Source: Borrelia turcica IST7 (GTDB lineage Bacteria; Spirochaetota; Spirochaetia; Borreliales; Borreliaceae). Taken from it: 64,000 nt of DNA. This document shows, piece by piece, positions 31,856 to 58,920 of the stretch. A program made the position numbers and the translations under genes. A model generated the notes under the pieces. The model saw only the letters and a list, made by a program, of their open reading frames with translations, was not told where the DNA came from and ran no database searches. The stretch lies in NCBI RefSeq assembly GCF_003606285.1, contig NZ_CP028884.1, forward strand, positions 248,001 through 312,000, in the 5' to 3' direction. How positions within the stretch are numbered: the stretch's first letter is position 1; the number at the start of each line of letters is the position of its first letter.

Positions 31856-34009
31856 CTAGGCTCCCTTAGGAAATTTACCCACAATATACTCTACCACAGA
31901 ATCTATGCCTTTACCCTCATATAAAGCATCATACAATACAGAATAAACTAATATTTTCTTAACATAATTCCTAGTTTGACCAAATGGGATTGCCTCAATG
32001 AAAAGTTCCTTAGGCATATGTCCATAAGCTTGGTCCCACTTACGCACATTGCCAATACCAGCATTATAAGATGCAAGAGCCTTATAAACATCTCCTATTG
32101 TTCCTATTCTTTTTTTTAAATAATAAGTTCCTATAATCACATTATCTTTTGGTTGCTTCAAATCATAATCATAGTATTTAATCTCTCTAGATATATCAAC
32201 TGCCGTTGAAGGCATAACTTGCATAAGTCCAACAGCACCAGGCCTAGATACAGCATCTCTTTTAAAACTACTCTCGGCCTTTATTAAAGAGAAAACAAGA
32301 CTAGACTCAAGCATTCGTCTCTTTGACCAATATTTCACCAAAGAACTATATAAATAAGGATAAAGACGCTTATAATCATCTCTATTTAAAGCTGAATTAT
32401 CTTGCTTTACAAGATAATTAATAACAAGTGTAGCTTCATAATAATATTCATGCCTTATAAGCTCATCATAAAGCTCACGGTAAAAATTAGGTGAAAATCT
32501 ATACCCATTCTTAAAATCATCCGCAACAAAAGCGCCAACATAAGCATGCAGATTAAATCTCAAAAAGCCCTCTAGGAAACTTTCATAATCAGACTGCTCA
32601 TAATCAATATCTAAATTATTTTCAAAAAAATCATCAATGTTTTGATCCAATAAATATTTGCTCATAAAAGAAGAATAAGACGCCTTGTTATATTGAATCG
32701 AAGATCGTAAGAGCTCGCCATACTCACTCTCTGATTTAGCCTTAATCAATTTATGATATATAAGTCTTGCATTAATAAAGGCAAGCCTAGATAAAACAAC
32801 ACCATCAAGTACACCTTTACCATTACGATAGAGCGCATATAAATTATCATAATCCTCAAGTTGAATAGCCTCTAAAATATATTCATCCAATATCCTAATA
32901 AATACAGGATTACTGCTATCTCTATTCGTATAAAATCTAGCTATGTTTTGTGAAAAATAATTCCTCGCATTCTGCGTAAATATCAAATTGCTAAAAATCT
33001 CATTAAGCATTTCAAGCCTATAAGATTTATTTTCTAAAGAACTATTTTCTATATACCCAACTATACTATGCAACCCATTTGCCGTTTTTAATCTTAAGTT
33101 TATAAGTCCCAAATAGTATTCCTTATAAACACTATTCAAATTACTAAAAAAAGATAACGCCTTGCCTATGCGCCCTGAAGCCAAAAAAACCTTATAAACA
33201 TCATTTAAAAATACAAAATTATTATAATATTCCTTAAAATCATTACTTAATGTATTTATTGCACTCTCTAGTTTCCCATTAGCAACTAGGGCTTTAAACC
33301 TAACAAGATTTAAAAAACTCTTACTCAGGCGTCCAAATCTCTCATCCAAAATAAGATAATCATGAGCCCTTACATGTAAATAACCTGCCGGCAAATCCTC
33401 AAATAACTTTCTAAAATAAACCAATGATTCATTAATATCCGCAATATTAAAATAAAGAACAGCTTTAAATAAAATATTCTCATTCAGCTGAGATTCTAAA
33501 AAATTCATTTTATCCAGTTTATTTAAAACTAAAAGAGCCTCATCATTCTTTTTTTGCCAATAAAGACTTTTAAAATATCCCAATACAACATACTTATTGT
33601 CTTCATATTTTTTGTAAAGCTTCCGTCCAATAAGTTCAGCCTCATAATATTCTCTTCTTGCATTATGGTATTCCAGAAGCCTAACACCAGCAAATTGTGA
33701 TACAATATCATTACCAGTCTCTATTGCTTTAAGCATATATTCCCTAAATTTTTCTTCATATCCTATTTTCCTAAAAAGATAGGCAACATACACATACGAA
33801 CTTGAATCTATACCAAAATATTCATCAAAATTTTGTTTCTCATAATCAAAATTCCATAACCAGTTTAAATGATTTAAATCAAAATGATCCAAATTCCTCT
33901 GTACCACACTTCCATTCAAAGATTTTCTTTCAAAAGAACAAGATAATAAACTTAATAACAAAAAAATAAAAACAGATTTACTGAATAAAAAAAATACTTT
34001 CTTAAACAT
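31856..34009 (-). CDS. Lipoprotein soluble-lytic-transglycosylase (SLT) with helical repeats
   Basis: Cleaves the glycan strands of peptidoglycan. The N-terminus is a lipoprotein signal ending LLSLLSC, so the enzyme is membrane-bound in the periplasm. About 500 residues of helical, TPR-like superhelix resemble the U-domain of Slt70. The C-terminal SLT domain has catalytic E579 in LIKAESSFKRDAVS, then GAVGLMQVMPSTA and ALASYNAGIGNV. I start at the Met giving MFKKVFF, at 34009, since an earlier in-frame start at 34054 would put 15 charged residues before the signal peptide. With this start it overlaps the upstream acidic-protein gene by 8 bases. Confidence 0.92.
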   Translation of the reverse strand: MFKKVFFLFSKSVFIFLLLSLLSCSFERKSLNGSVVQRNLDHFDLNHLNWLWNFDYEKQNFDEYFGIDSSSYVYVAYLFRKIGYEEKFREYMLKAIETGNDIVSQFAGVRLLEYHNARREYYEAELIGRKLYKKYEDNKYVVLGYFKSLYWQKKNDEALLVLNKLDKMNFLESQLNENILFKAVLYFNIADINESLVYFRKLFEDLPAGYLHVRAHDYLILDERFGRLSKSFLNLVRFKALVANGKLESAINTLSNDFKEYYNNFVFLNDVYKVFLASGRIGKALSFFSNLNSVYKEYYLGLINLRLKTANGLHSIVGYIENSSLENKSYRLEMLNEIFSNLIFTQNARNYFSQNIARFYTNRDSSNPVFIRILDEYILEAIQLEDYDNLYALYRNGKGVLDGVVLSRLAFINARLIYHKLIKAKSESEYGELLRSSIQYNKASYSSFMSKYLLDQNIDDFFENNLDIDYEQSDYESFLEGFLRFNLHAYVGAFVADDFKNGYRFSPNFYRELYDELIRHEYYYEATLVINYLVKQDNSALNRDDYKRLYPYLYSSLVKYWSKRRMLESSLVFSLIKAESSFKRDAVSRPGAVGLMQVMPSTAVDISREIKYYDYDLKQPKDNVIIGTYYLKKRIGTIGDVYKALASYNAGIGNVRKWDQAYGHMPKELFIEAIPFGQTRNYVKKILVYSVLYDALYEGKGIDSVVEYIVGKFPKGA

Positions 34010-35198
34010 AATCACTTCTTTCATGCTTTTTAACTTTTTCTTCCTCACATACATAATGATAAGAAATTTTCAAATTTCTAGGATTTAAAACTTTAGAAAA
34101 AATCAAAAATAATGAAAAAAATATCAACAGAAATAAAGAAATAAGACTTAAATAAAGCATAAAGGTTTGCATAAAACCTTCCTTTGAATCTGAATCTAAC
34201 TGATCATCCTCAATACCCATACCCAAGCCTTTGCTAGTATCTAAAACAACATCATCAGCCGGTCTATCTCCCAACCCTTTATCAATATCTGCAATAATAT
34301 CATCAACACTCAAATCATCAGAATAAGAATCTTTAAAACTGGCTACATTAACACTACTAAAATCAATATCTTCATCCTCAATGAATTTCATAACATTATT
34401 ATCAGAATCAAAACTAACATCACTAGCTTCAGAGGGAAAATCATCTAAACCAGACCCATCTCTTTCTACATTATCCCCATCATTAACAAAATTAAGAAGC
34501 TCCCTACCCACCTCATCATTCCCATTCTCAAAGGTGTCTCTATTAAGATTATCATCCACCTCTTCTAAATTAAGGTTAGAATCAAAATCTAAAGCACTAA
34601 ATGTGTCCTCACCTTTGTCTAATGAATTAGATATATCTAAATTACCCTCATTAACAAAACTCTCTTCACTTAAAGAATTTAAGTCCTCTGTATTAGGCAA
34701 ATCATCAACATCATCTAAGATATCCAAGGAAGAATTATCTTTATCTTGCTCAAAATCACTGTTTAAATTTTCAGCAGAGATATCCTCAAACTCTAAATCA
34801 CCAGAACCAGAAACAAGTACATCTTCAACTTGACTATCCTCAACAGAATCACTAAGCTCAACCGAATCTACATCAAGATTAACCAAGCTCAAATCAAACT
34901 TAGATTTACTCTCAATCCCATCACACTCACCATAAACATAAAGCATCGTAGAATCCATTCTAAAATAAACATTTATATCCGAACTTTCTTCTTTAAGATT
35001 ATCTAAGAAAAAAGACCCGACAAGAACAGGATTAGAAAAATCTTCAGCCTTACTAATGTAAAAATCCAACTTCACATTAGTTTCATCTACAAGCTTACCC
35101 AATACCACTTTTTTTACAGAACTATCTTCCAAGTCCAAAACTGAAAAATACTCTTTATTAGAAAGCCTTATTGCTAAAAACCCTTTCAAGAATTCCAA
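34002..35198 (-). CDS. Acidic, low-complexity membrane protein of unknown function
   Basis: 398 aa. The first ~105 residues look like a folded beta-rich domain. Residues ~110-335 are dominated by Asp, Glu, Ser and Asn with little predicted order. A single strong membrane helix (LYLSLISLFLLIFFSLFLIF) lies near 348-367, followed by a short basic tail. I recognise no family. The frame opens at a TTG (35198) directly abutting AAAGG; a second TTG at 35189 has better spacing (9 bases), so the true start may be three codons in. The stop overlaps the SLT lipoprotein start by 8 bases, so the two products may work together at the wall. This is inference. Confidence 0.75.
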   Translation of the reverse strand: MEFLKGFLAIRLSNKEYFSVLDLEDSSVKKVVLGKLVDETNVKLDFYISKAEDFSNPVLVGSFFLDNLKEESSDINVYFRMDSTMLYVYGECDGIESKSKFDLSLVNLDVDSVELSDSVEDSQVEDVLVSGSGDLEFEDISAENLNSDFEQDKDNSSLDILDDVDDLPNTEDLNSLSEESFVNEGNLDISNSLDKGEDTFSALDFDSNLNLEEVDDNLNRDTFENGNDEVGRELLNFVNDGDNVERDGSGLDDFPSEASDVSFDSDNNVMKFIEDEDIDFSSVNVASFKDSYSDDLSVDDIIADIDKGLGDRPADDVVLDTSKGLGMGIEDDQLDSDSKEGFMQTFMLYLSLISLFLLIFFSLFLIFSKVLNPRNLKISYHYVCEEEKVKKHERSDYV

Positions 35199-35333: not shown

Positions 35334-35364
35334 ATTACTAAATATAAGTTTAGGAGAAATTTAG

Positions 35365-36747
35365 GTGTTACCATTATTCATAATAGTTTCCTCATTTACA
35401 GTATCTTTTTTGGTATTTTTATTTTTCAAGCTTGCAATAAAAACTACACAAATAAGAGAAAAAGGTATACATGATAACAAGTCAGATAGAACAAAAAAAT
35501 TAATAGAAAAAGCTATGAATATGCTCAAAACAAATCCAAATGAAATAAGAGCTCTTCAAACTTTAAACAATTATTATTATGACAATAAAGATTCTGAGAA
35601 TGGAATTAAATATGCTAAAAAATTATGTCAACTTATAGAAAAAAATCCTATAAGCCAAGATATAGACTCTCTTAAAGCTTTTTTAAGCTACGGTTTTTAT
35701 AATCTTGAGAGAAATTTTAATAGAGAAGCATTAGAGTTCCTTAAAAAGGCCTATGCAATAAAAAAGAATGATACAGATGTTAACTATTATCTTGGAATAG
35801 CTTTCCTCAGAAACGACTATTACAAAGAAGCTCTCCATTATCTCACAAAAATATACAAATTTGATAAAAATAATCATCAAGCTTTAAAATACATAGGAAT
35901 AGTTCTTTTTCATATGGAAAATTATCATAAAGCCGTTGGGATATTTAATAACATAAAAAATTACATACAAAATGATGTCAATGCTCTTTTAATTTATGCT
36001 AAATGCCTATCTCAACTCAATCAAGATCGCCTTGCTCTTGAAATTGCAGATAAACTAAAACACAGAGACGGAATGACATACGAATCTCTTTTAATTGAGT
36101 GTGAAATTCATGCAAAAAATAATAACCTGGAAAACTTAGAAGAAAATGTTAAAGAACTAATTAAAGTAAAACCTGATTTGCCTAAAAAAATATTCCTTGA
36201 ACTCTTTTATAAACTAGGTGAGCTTTACATAGAATCTGAAAACTATCAAAAAGCAACCGATGTTTTTATTCAAGTTGAAAGAGTAGACTCAAACTATAAA
36301 AAAATCAACGAAAAACTAGAATTTAGTAGAAGGCTAAGCGAAAATCTATCACTTAGAACATATCTTAAAAGTTCAAAAGAAAAATTTGAAAAATTAGCTA
36401 GTGAAATTATCCTTAAACTTTATAAAAATAAGTTCCAAATAAGAGACGCAAAGACAAATGAAGTAACTTCTCAATTTATAGACATAAATTTTCAACTTGC
36501 AAATAATCAATGGGAAGAAAATTTAATAGTCCGATTTGTTAGGACAGAACAAGAGATTCTAGGAGAATTATTTTTAAAAGATCTTATTTCAAAAACTAAA
36601 GAAAATAAATTAAAAGGACTCTGCATAGCACCAGCCATATTTTCTGCTAAAGCTAAACAAATAATTGAAGGTAGATTAATTGACCTAGTAGAAGGGAAAA
36701 AACTAATACAAATATTAAAAAAAGTGAATATATCAAAGTATCACTAA
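35365..36747 (+). CDS. Membrane-anchored TPR protein with an Mrr/restriction-endonuclease-like C-terminal domain
   Basis: 460 aa. Residues 3-25 form one N-terminal membrane helix, with a basic segment after it. Residues ~45-320 are tetratricopeptide-like helical repeats, clearest at ~105-200. The last ~110 residues resemble the end of Mrr-type nuclease domains: a beta strand LIVRFVRT near 387-394, a helix, then CIAPAIFSAKAKQIIEGRLIDLVEGKKL (split by position 420-447), which follows the usual F-S-x-x-A-x-x-x-A-E-G-x-x-I-x-L-I-D-G-x-x-L pattern. The Q-x-K or E-x-K catalytic pair expected in the strand reads R-F-V here, so activity is doubtful. Start GTG at 35365 with AGGAGA 8 bases upstream. 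Its stop is one base from that of the convergent M23 gene. Function unknown. Confidence 0.75.
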   Translation: MLPLFIIVSSFTVSFLVFLFFKLAIKTTQIREKGIHDNKSDRTKKLIEKAMNMLKTNPNEIRALQTLNNYYYDNKDSENGIKYAKKLCQLIEKNPISQDIDSLKAFLSYGFYNLERNFNREALEFLKKAYAIKKNDTDVNYYLGIAFLRNDYYKEALHYLTKIYKFDKNNHQALKYIGIVLFHMENYHKAVGIFNNIKNYIQNDVNALLIYAKCLSQLNQDRLALEIADKLKHRDGMTYESLLIECEIHAKNNNLENLEENVKELIKVKPDLPKKIFLELFYKLGELYIESENYQKATDVFIQVERVDSNYKKINEKLEFSRRLSENLSLRTYLKSSKEKFEKLASEIILKLYKNKFQIRDAKTNEVTSQFIDINFQLANNQWEENLIVRFVRTEQEILGELFLKDLISKTKENKLKGLCIAPAIFSAKAKQIIEGRLIDLVEGKKLIQILKKVNISKYH

Positions 36748-57881: not shown

Positions 57882-58496
57882 TCACTCCAACGAACCAACA
57901 GACATCTTTCTCATCAATACAGCAGCTTTCTTAGCATCCATAAGAGATAACCAATAAGGAACAATAGATGCACGTCCCTCCTTTTTAGAAACATCTTCTA
58001 CCTTACGTATATAAGATATTGCAATCTCATCATTAAGTTCCTCAAGCCTTCTAACCGCATCTTCTGGTGGCATATTCATTAAATATAGAGCAGACTGTAC
58101 AAAATTTGCGTCCTCATCTTTATACTTGTTAACAATATCATCAATCACCTTCTGTTTTAAATCTAAATCTCTTTGCTTTTGATTCAGTTCGGCTTCAAGC
58201 TTATTCAAACTATCTTCTCTTTCCTTTAATTCCTCTCTTAACTTTTCAACTTGTTGGCTCTTAATATCAATAGCTTCTCTTTCCTTTATCATTCTAATTT
58301 CATCAAGACTAATATGTGTATCCTCAAAAGGTTGCATATTTTCACTAAAAAATAAATTCTTTACATACAGTGGAAAATAATCTCTAGTTCTATATATTCC
58401 AAATAAATCAATCAAAAAAAATGAAAGTCCCATGAAAAAAACAATCAAAAAAAGCCATAAACATAGTCTAGATAAGAATGACAAAACACTACTCAT
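57882..58496 (-). CDS. flbB: FlbB, periplasmic-flagellar collar protein
   Basis: 204 aa. One membrane helix at residues ~13-33, a coiled coil at ~63-115 (heptads through KLREELKEREDSLNKLEAEL), and a C-terminal MotE/MgtE-N-like helical domain (MNMPPEDAVRRLEELND). In B. burgdorferi FlbB is the base of the spirochaete-specific collar that helps place stators and orient flagella. It overlaps the fliJ-like start by 8 bases. The MotE likeness explains the location beside stator and export genes. Confidence 0.9.
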   Translation of the reverse strand: MSSVLSFLSRLCLWLFLIVFFMGLSFFLIDLFGIYRTRDYFPLYVKNLFFSENMQPFEDTHISLDEIRMIKEREAIDIKSQQVEKLREELKEREDSLNKLEAELNQKQRDLDLKQKVIDDIVNKYKDEDANFVQSALYLMNMPPEDAVRRLEELNDEIAISYIRKVEDVSKKEGRASIVPYWLSLMDAKKAAVLMRKMSVGSLE

Positions 58497-58920
58497 TACT
58501 ATTCCCTAATTTTCTACAAATTTCATAGTTAACATATTCATCTAAAAATGAACTTTCTTTTTTTTCTTTTCCCTTAATTATAGTATCATTTAAAATTTTT
58601 ATTAATATTTTGACCTTCTTTTCTTCTTTATACTTTTCTAAATAAGTATCATAATGCTTATTATATTCATTCTTCAATTTTACAAGCTTTTTTAATTCTT
58701 CTTTCTTTTTAAAATTTAAATAATCCAAATAATTCCCCTTACAAAGAATATCTACATTGTTTAATTCCTTTACACAATTAGGAACTTCATCAATAAACTT
58801 TTCTATTTTTGAAATATTATCATTTATATTCATTAAATTAATTTCACTAAATTTCTTATCATAAGTTTTAACAACTAATATTTTTTCAAATTTCTTCTTT
58901 TTAAATATTAAATCACTCAA
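58489..58920 (-). CDS. fliJ: FliJ-like export chaperone (FlbA)
   Basis: 143 aa, almost entirely charged alpha helix and coiled coil with high Lys, Glu and Asn, which is the FliJ plan. Primary sequence is too divergent for a motif; the assignment rests on length, helicity and the position right after fliI, where fliJ is usually found. FliJ couples the FliI ATPase ring to FlhA. It overlaps fliI by 4 bases. Confidence 0.78.
   Translation of the reverse strand: MSDLIFKKKKFEKILVVKTYDKKFSEINLMNINDNISKIEKFIDEVPNCVKELNNVDILCKGNYLDYLNFKKKEELKKLVKLKNEYNKHYDTYLEKYKEEKKVKILIKILNDTIIKGKEKKESSFLDEYVNYEICRKLGNSNE

Follow-up and report, generated by a model that had tools for sequence, protein, structure and literature searches.

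Why does a Borrelia chromosome encode a protein that begins as a membrane-anchored TPR protein and ends like a restriction nuclease? The question is raised by the open reading frame at positions 35365-36747 (+) of the window, i.e. the 64,000-nucleotide stretch of Borrelia turcica IST7 analysed here. The initial annotation had proposed for this frame an N-terminal membrane helix, TPR-like repeats and an Mrr-like, probably inactive, nuclease domain, a combination it had not seen described for Borrelia; we also found no description of this fusion in the literature searched. The frame itself is real, with a GTG start, 460 encoded residues and a ribosome-binding site upstream. The features considered are the following.

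31856-34054, minus strand: lytic transglycosylase BB0259, for flagellar assembly; matches NF047373 at 735.6 bits against a cut-off of 234
34002-35198, minus strand: BB0260-like membrane protein, divergent neighbour and conserved locus partner
35352-35356, plus strand: AGGAG, the ribosome-binding site, 8 nt upstream of the start codon, read from the sequence
35365-36747, plus strand: gene of the TPR/inactive Mrr-like protein (460 aa), starting with GTG; by gene order, the presumed ortholog of BB0261
35365-35427, plus strand: membrane helix at the N-terminus (residues 1-21) with net positive charge behind it; predicted N-out/C-in
35485-36342, plus strand: TPR solenoid, residues ~41-326 (Pfam and AlphaFold)
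36367-36744, plus strand: inactive Mrr-like domain of PD-(D/E)xK type, residues 335-460 (~125 aa), fold by homology
36481-36483, plus strand: D373, aligned with the Asp of the Mrr G-x-D motif; Asp in 27/47 family members, Glu in 12/47
36532-36543, plus strand: R390-F-V-R393, where Q/E-x-K was lost; R393 in 46/47
36673-36675, plus strand: R437, near-invariant, family-specific Arg (46/47)

The gene order at the locus is ftsK, uppP, lytic transglycosylase, membrane protein, TPR/Mrr-like gene, M23 peptidase, lepB, and hsp70. On this basis, the product is presumed to be the ortholog of B. burgdorferi BB0261, a number anchored by the neighbouring gene, which the BB0259 model NF047373 matches. Protein identity is ~70-95% across Borrelia and Borreliella. 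In the open-access texts searched, a set that leaves out most subscription journals, we found neither a paper on BB0261 nor a report of a flagellar phenotype for it.

Membrane anchor and TPR solenoid

The three-part layout is borne out along the whole protein. A strongly hydrophobic helix opens all of the 47 family members examined; charges are sparse ahead of it, and the 25 residues that follow carry a mean net charge of +5.6 (at least +3 in 44/47). Following the positive-inside rule, the TPR and Mrr-like parts are thus predicted to lie on the cytoplasmic side of the inner membrane. Between helix and C-terminal domain, Pfam placed TPR_2, TPR_19, TPR_14 and other TPR models above their cut-offs and found no other type of repeat in the Borrelia protein, which is therefore a TPR protein by its motifs. 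Coherently, AlphaFold built the same region as a confident helical solenoid, resembling designed TPR proteins and the TPR domain of OGT.

Two known groups share parts of this layout. LapB/YciM is likewise membrane-anchored by an N-terminal helix and carries cytoplasmic TPRs; however, the C-terminus of LapB is a rubredoxin-type metal module, whereas the protein studied here ends in a dead nuclease domain. Identity with LapB/YciM was rejected on account of this Mrr-like C-terminus and of the score for the NCBIfam LapB model (33.7 bits vs a cut-off of 363). The collar proteins FlcA-FlcD and FlbB are comparable as flagellar parts specific to spirochetes, several of them with TPRs (PMC8609358, PMC11750108). 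They are periplasmic; in our protein, the positive charge behind the helix predicts that the TPRs are cytoplasmic, in place of a signal peptide or periplasmic location, and the TPRs are followed by an Mrr-like domain. Membership of the FlcA family was rejected as well (29.9 bits vs a cut-off of 300).

The C-terminal domain and its lost catalytic site

Taken alone, the last 126 residues of the Borrelia protein had no Pfam match. Relatives from 40 other spirochete loci share the length and layout of the whole protein, and when the C-terminal domains of 45 relatives were scanned singly (E<=10), 41 matched Mrr_cat (PF04471), with a best E of 1.9e-14. The relatives L044 (35.7 bits) and L080 (28.5 bits) score above the gathering score of 21 bits. 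Thus, the Borrelia domain, having no match of its own, is placed in Mrr_cat through its relatives. Furthermore, hhalign aligned the family profile over the whole domain with eleven true Mrr-type domains from spirochetes (98% probability, E 2.6e-13). The Mrr-like ending noticed in the initial annotation is therefore more than a chance motif. With Mrr_cat the family shares the F-S-x-x-A and I-x-L-x-x-G/K-x-x-L ending and, in many members, the Asp of G-x-D.

The AlphaFold model of the domain was unusable: the mean pLDDT was 53.5 at best in two runs, because the alignments contained only Borrelia sequences, and Foldseek with this low-confidence model gave no match at E<=0.001. Since the fold rests on sequence homology, we infer an Mrr-type PD-(D/E)xK fold for the C-terminal domain. 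Non-catalytic use of such a fold has precedents. RPB5, whose N-terminal domain likewise uses the REase-like fold without catalysis, was the top PDB-sequence match of the family profile, although weak (E 0.007) and limited to ~46 residues. NA-iREase1 (PF22722), a second such user, gave weak matches in 36/45 members (best E 3.4e-6); in the two members whose scores are given, these reach 21.9 and 18.5 bits, below the 27-bit cut-off, and Pfam found no NACHT domain in the Borrelia protein. Our family thus differs from NA-iREase1 both in score and in its lack of the associated NACHT ATPase. A scan of viral contigs found no further relatives.

Purifying selection acts on the domain, which is conserved more strongly than the TPRs: mean identity is 90% vs 84%, and its dN/dS is ~0.05-0.09.

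The Asp of G-x-D and both the Gln and the Lys of Q-x-K are invariant in true spirochete Mrr domains. As the initial annotation had proposed, the strand V-R-F-V-R (389-393) and D373 align with this site, and the loss of the catalytic residues holds across the family. Indeed, the Gln/Glu position is Arg in 39/47 aligned members and Gln or Glu in none, while Lys occupies the catalytic Lys position in 0/47; in the Borrelia protein, Q-x-K is replaced by R390-F-V392. Of the Asp plus Q/E-x-K on adjacent strands that mark an active Mrr, only D373 is kept, and the winged-helix DNA-binding domain of Mrr is replaced at the N-terminus by the membrane helix and TPRs. In the more distant members, Leptospira-like and Brachyspira-like, Asn stands in place of Asp and the strand reads R-I-R-K-W or S-F-K-R-W. 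The loss of the site is thus general, and its form varies from branch to branch.

Could the enzyme still cut, at least conditionally, with a rearranged active site and a migrated catalytic residue? Migrated catalytic residues are known among PD-(D/E)xK enzymes, the D373 position is acidic in 39/47 members, position 405 is basic in 46/47 and a Lys is kept in the Brachyspira-like members (SFKRW). Even so, we regard activity as highly improbable, given the Arg that has taken the place of the second metal ligand in most members and the Asn that replaces Asp in the Brachyspira- and Leptospira-like members.

An Mrr-type domain with an intact site (GGIDG ... EVK) does occur elsewhere in the genome that carries our gene: outside the window, at G000:C1 ~58400-58591 (-), it is fused to a chromosomal DNA methyltransferase (L084). 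This feature was seen in 2/8 Borrelia genomes of the class draw described below, the other being a 101-aa open frame in G228.

Having lost its second metal ligand and lysine, the domain should bind rather than cut. One candidate ligand is nucleic acid: the dead domain would grip DNA or RNA through its basic residues, tethering flagellar mRNA or the chromosome to the membrane. DNA is what ancestral Mrr domains act on, the Borrelia domain is predicted to be cytoplasmic and it displays conserved basic residues (R390, R393, R405/K405, R437). Moreover, the family gene adjoins rsmG-mnmG-mnmE in several families, and motility genes are under post-transcriptional control in spirochetes (PMC3757020). 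However, the R393 position is basic in true Mrr domains too, so that this residue may be inherited and need not mean binding, and the surface model of the domain is of low confidence. We consider this explanation unlikely, albeit the strongest of the rivals to the protein scaffold proposed below.

Distribution of the family and its flagellar neighbourhood

The family profile matches 269/296 Spirochaetota genomes. Many Spirochaetia genomes have two members, Borrelia keeps one, and the domain tree sets the paralog B group apart from the group holding Borrelia. The TPR/Mrr-like architecture is therefore phylum-wide and ancient, not peculiar to Borrelia, and often present as two paralogs. In this, too, it differs from Mrr_cat, a sporadic defence gene, being a near-universal core gene of flagellated spirochetes.

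The link to flagella emerged from a draw of 118 Spirochaetia genomes, in which carriers were defined by a family match at E<=1e-6 and canonical FliG by a match at E<=1e-40. All of the 90 carriers encode FliG or flagellin: canonical FliG was found in 87, and flagellin in the other three, whose assemblies are 80-87% complete. Among the 28 non-carriers, canonical FliG is absent in 27, flagellin in 24 of the 26 tested and the canonical flagellar set in 26. Two non-carriers depart from this pattern, both of them fragmented assemblies: G334, with canonical FliG as well as flagellin, and G349, with flagellin and a weak FliG. The remaining non-carriers belong to families f11, f56, f57, f65 and f60 and to genus g13 of family f8. 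Within f8, genus g171 has flagellin together with the TPR/Mrr-like protein, and genus g13 has neither; this split, with the other non-carrier families, implies at least two parallel losses. Simple genome reduction is not the explanation, since some non-carrier genomes measure 4.4-5.7 Mb and flagellated genomes of 0.9-1.1 Mb keep the gene.

The association is not strict. Outside the 118-genome draw, G134 (99% complete) has FliG and flagellin and no family member, and G073 and G079 are further exceptions outside the class. The genome counts also overstate the number of independent events, because flagellar losses are few and clustered by family; for instance, f11, with 12 genomes in the phylum draw, probably lost the gene only once.

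Six g13 genomes (G146, G237, G265, G350, G366 and G374) encode one weak FliG-like protein (E ~1e-17 to 1e-19), possibly a flagellar remnant or a repurposed FliG. Two candidate relatives were rejected as family members: L122, in G029, is a true Mrr, and L120 (G280:C1:2154294-2154470), from an unflagellated genome, is a membrane protein with EAAEK-type repeats and a similar Mrr-like C-terminal domain and has no TPRs.

The genomic neighbourhood also points to the flagellum. BB0259 is required for assembly of the periplasmic flagella (PMC8517470). In the draw, 70 genomes outside Borrelia match its model above cut-off, and 62 of these have a listed family member; in 34/62 the two genes lie less than 6 kb apart on one contig, and all 34 close pairs are divergent, as in the window. 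The gene between them is usually BB0260-like.

In the BB0260-like family outside Borrelia, part of the N-terminus resembles the substrate-binding region of Hsp70 (E 5e-10 in L064), and some members end in a C-terminal LysM, an odd combination (loci: window 34002-35198 (-), L069:2144-2947, L064:1945-2988, and L058:1000-2961). At the paralog B loci (L080, L082, L079 and L083), the neighbours are a pair of divergent TPR proteins bearing charged coiled-coil segments, a ParB-like/DUF4032 protein and, usually, a metallophosphoesterase. A link of paralog B to FlcD/BB0236 was rejected because the TPR neighbour of the paralog differs in kind from the presumed BB0236 (L115), which lies next to the window.

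Further functions of the envelope may have disappeared in unflagellated lineages, and the link could thus be to cell shape or peptidoglycan. In that case, the protein would be an envelope scaffold serving the peptidoglycan machinery, required by coiled, flagellated cells and for that reason alone lost together with the flagella. The unusual cell walls and shape of unflagellated Sphaerochaeta fit this picture, as do the nearby lytic transglycosylase and, in Borrelia, the M23 LysM peptidase and lepB. The conserved neighbour is, however, the flagellum-related transglycosylase BB0259 (PMC8517470, NF047373), and within f8 it is the flagellated genus that keeps the gene and the unflagellated one that is without it. 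We hold such a function to be improbable, more so than nucleic-acid tethering.

Proposed role in the periplasmic flagellum

Co-occurrence with flagella and the conserved divergent pairing with the gene of a flagellar lytic transglycosylase argue for a flagellar role. The reading we favour, by a little over even chances, is that of a membrane-bound, cytoplasm-facing TPR scaffold with a dead Mrr-type nuclease domain, which serves the periplasmic flagellum of spirochetes as an accessory. The N-terminal helix would fix the protein in the inner membrane; the solenoid, judging from its repeat class, would bind at least one protein partner; and the former nuclease domain would also bind, with the near-invariant R393 and R437 as the putative point of contact with a phosphate-bearing ligand or a partner protein. 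Most likely, the protein would bring flagellar parts to the cytoplasmic side of the membrane or position them there. From most to least likely, we rank scaffolding or recruitment at the cytoplasmic face, nucleic-acid tethering, an envelope-shape function and residual nuclease activity. The initial annotation had read the protein as a nuclease fold recruited as a sensor or binding module at the membrane, an interpretation that is partly supported: the Mrr-type homology, the loss of Q/E-x-K and the fusion to TPRs behind a membrane helix hold, and the sensor or binding function is putative.

Neither inactive domains of nuclease fold nor TPR scaffolds at the membrane are new in themselves; what is new is the functional association. 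Judging from genome comparison, the TPR/Mrr-like protein probably serves the flagellum of spirochetes as a helper that has been overlooked: published searches for the unassigned spirochete motor parts sought exported, periplasmic proteins, and the family is near one-to-one with flagella within the class and kept in the smallest flagellated genomes. More tentatively, at somewhat less than even chances, it may be a near-universal cytoplasmic flagellar component, from Leptospira-like spirochetes to Borrelia, in which a restriction-nuclease domain was captured, disarmed and made into a structural or placement module. Should the link to flagella hold, the gene would be a ready target in any motile spirochete, and the family would illustrate how a motility machine can take up a nuclease fold of the defence type.
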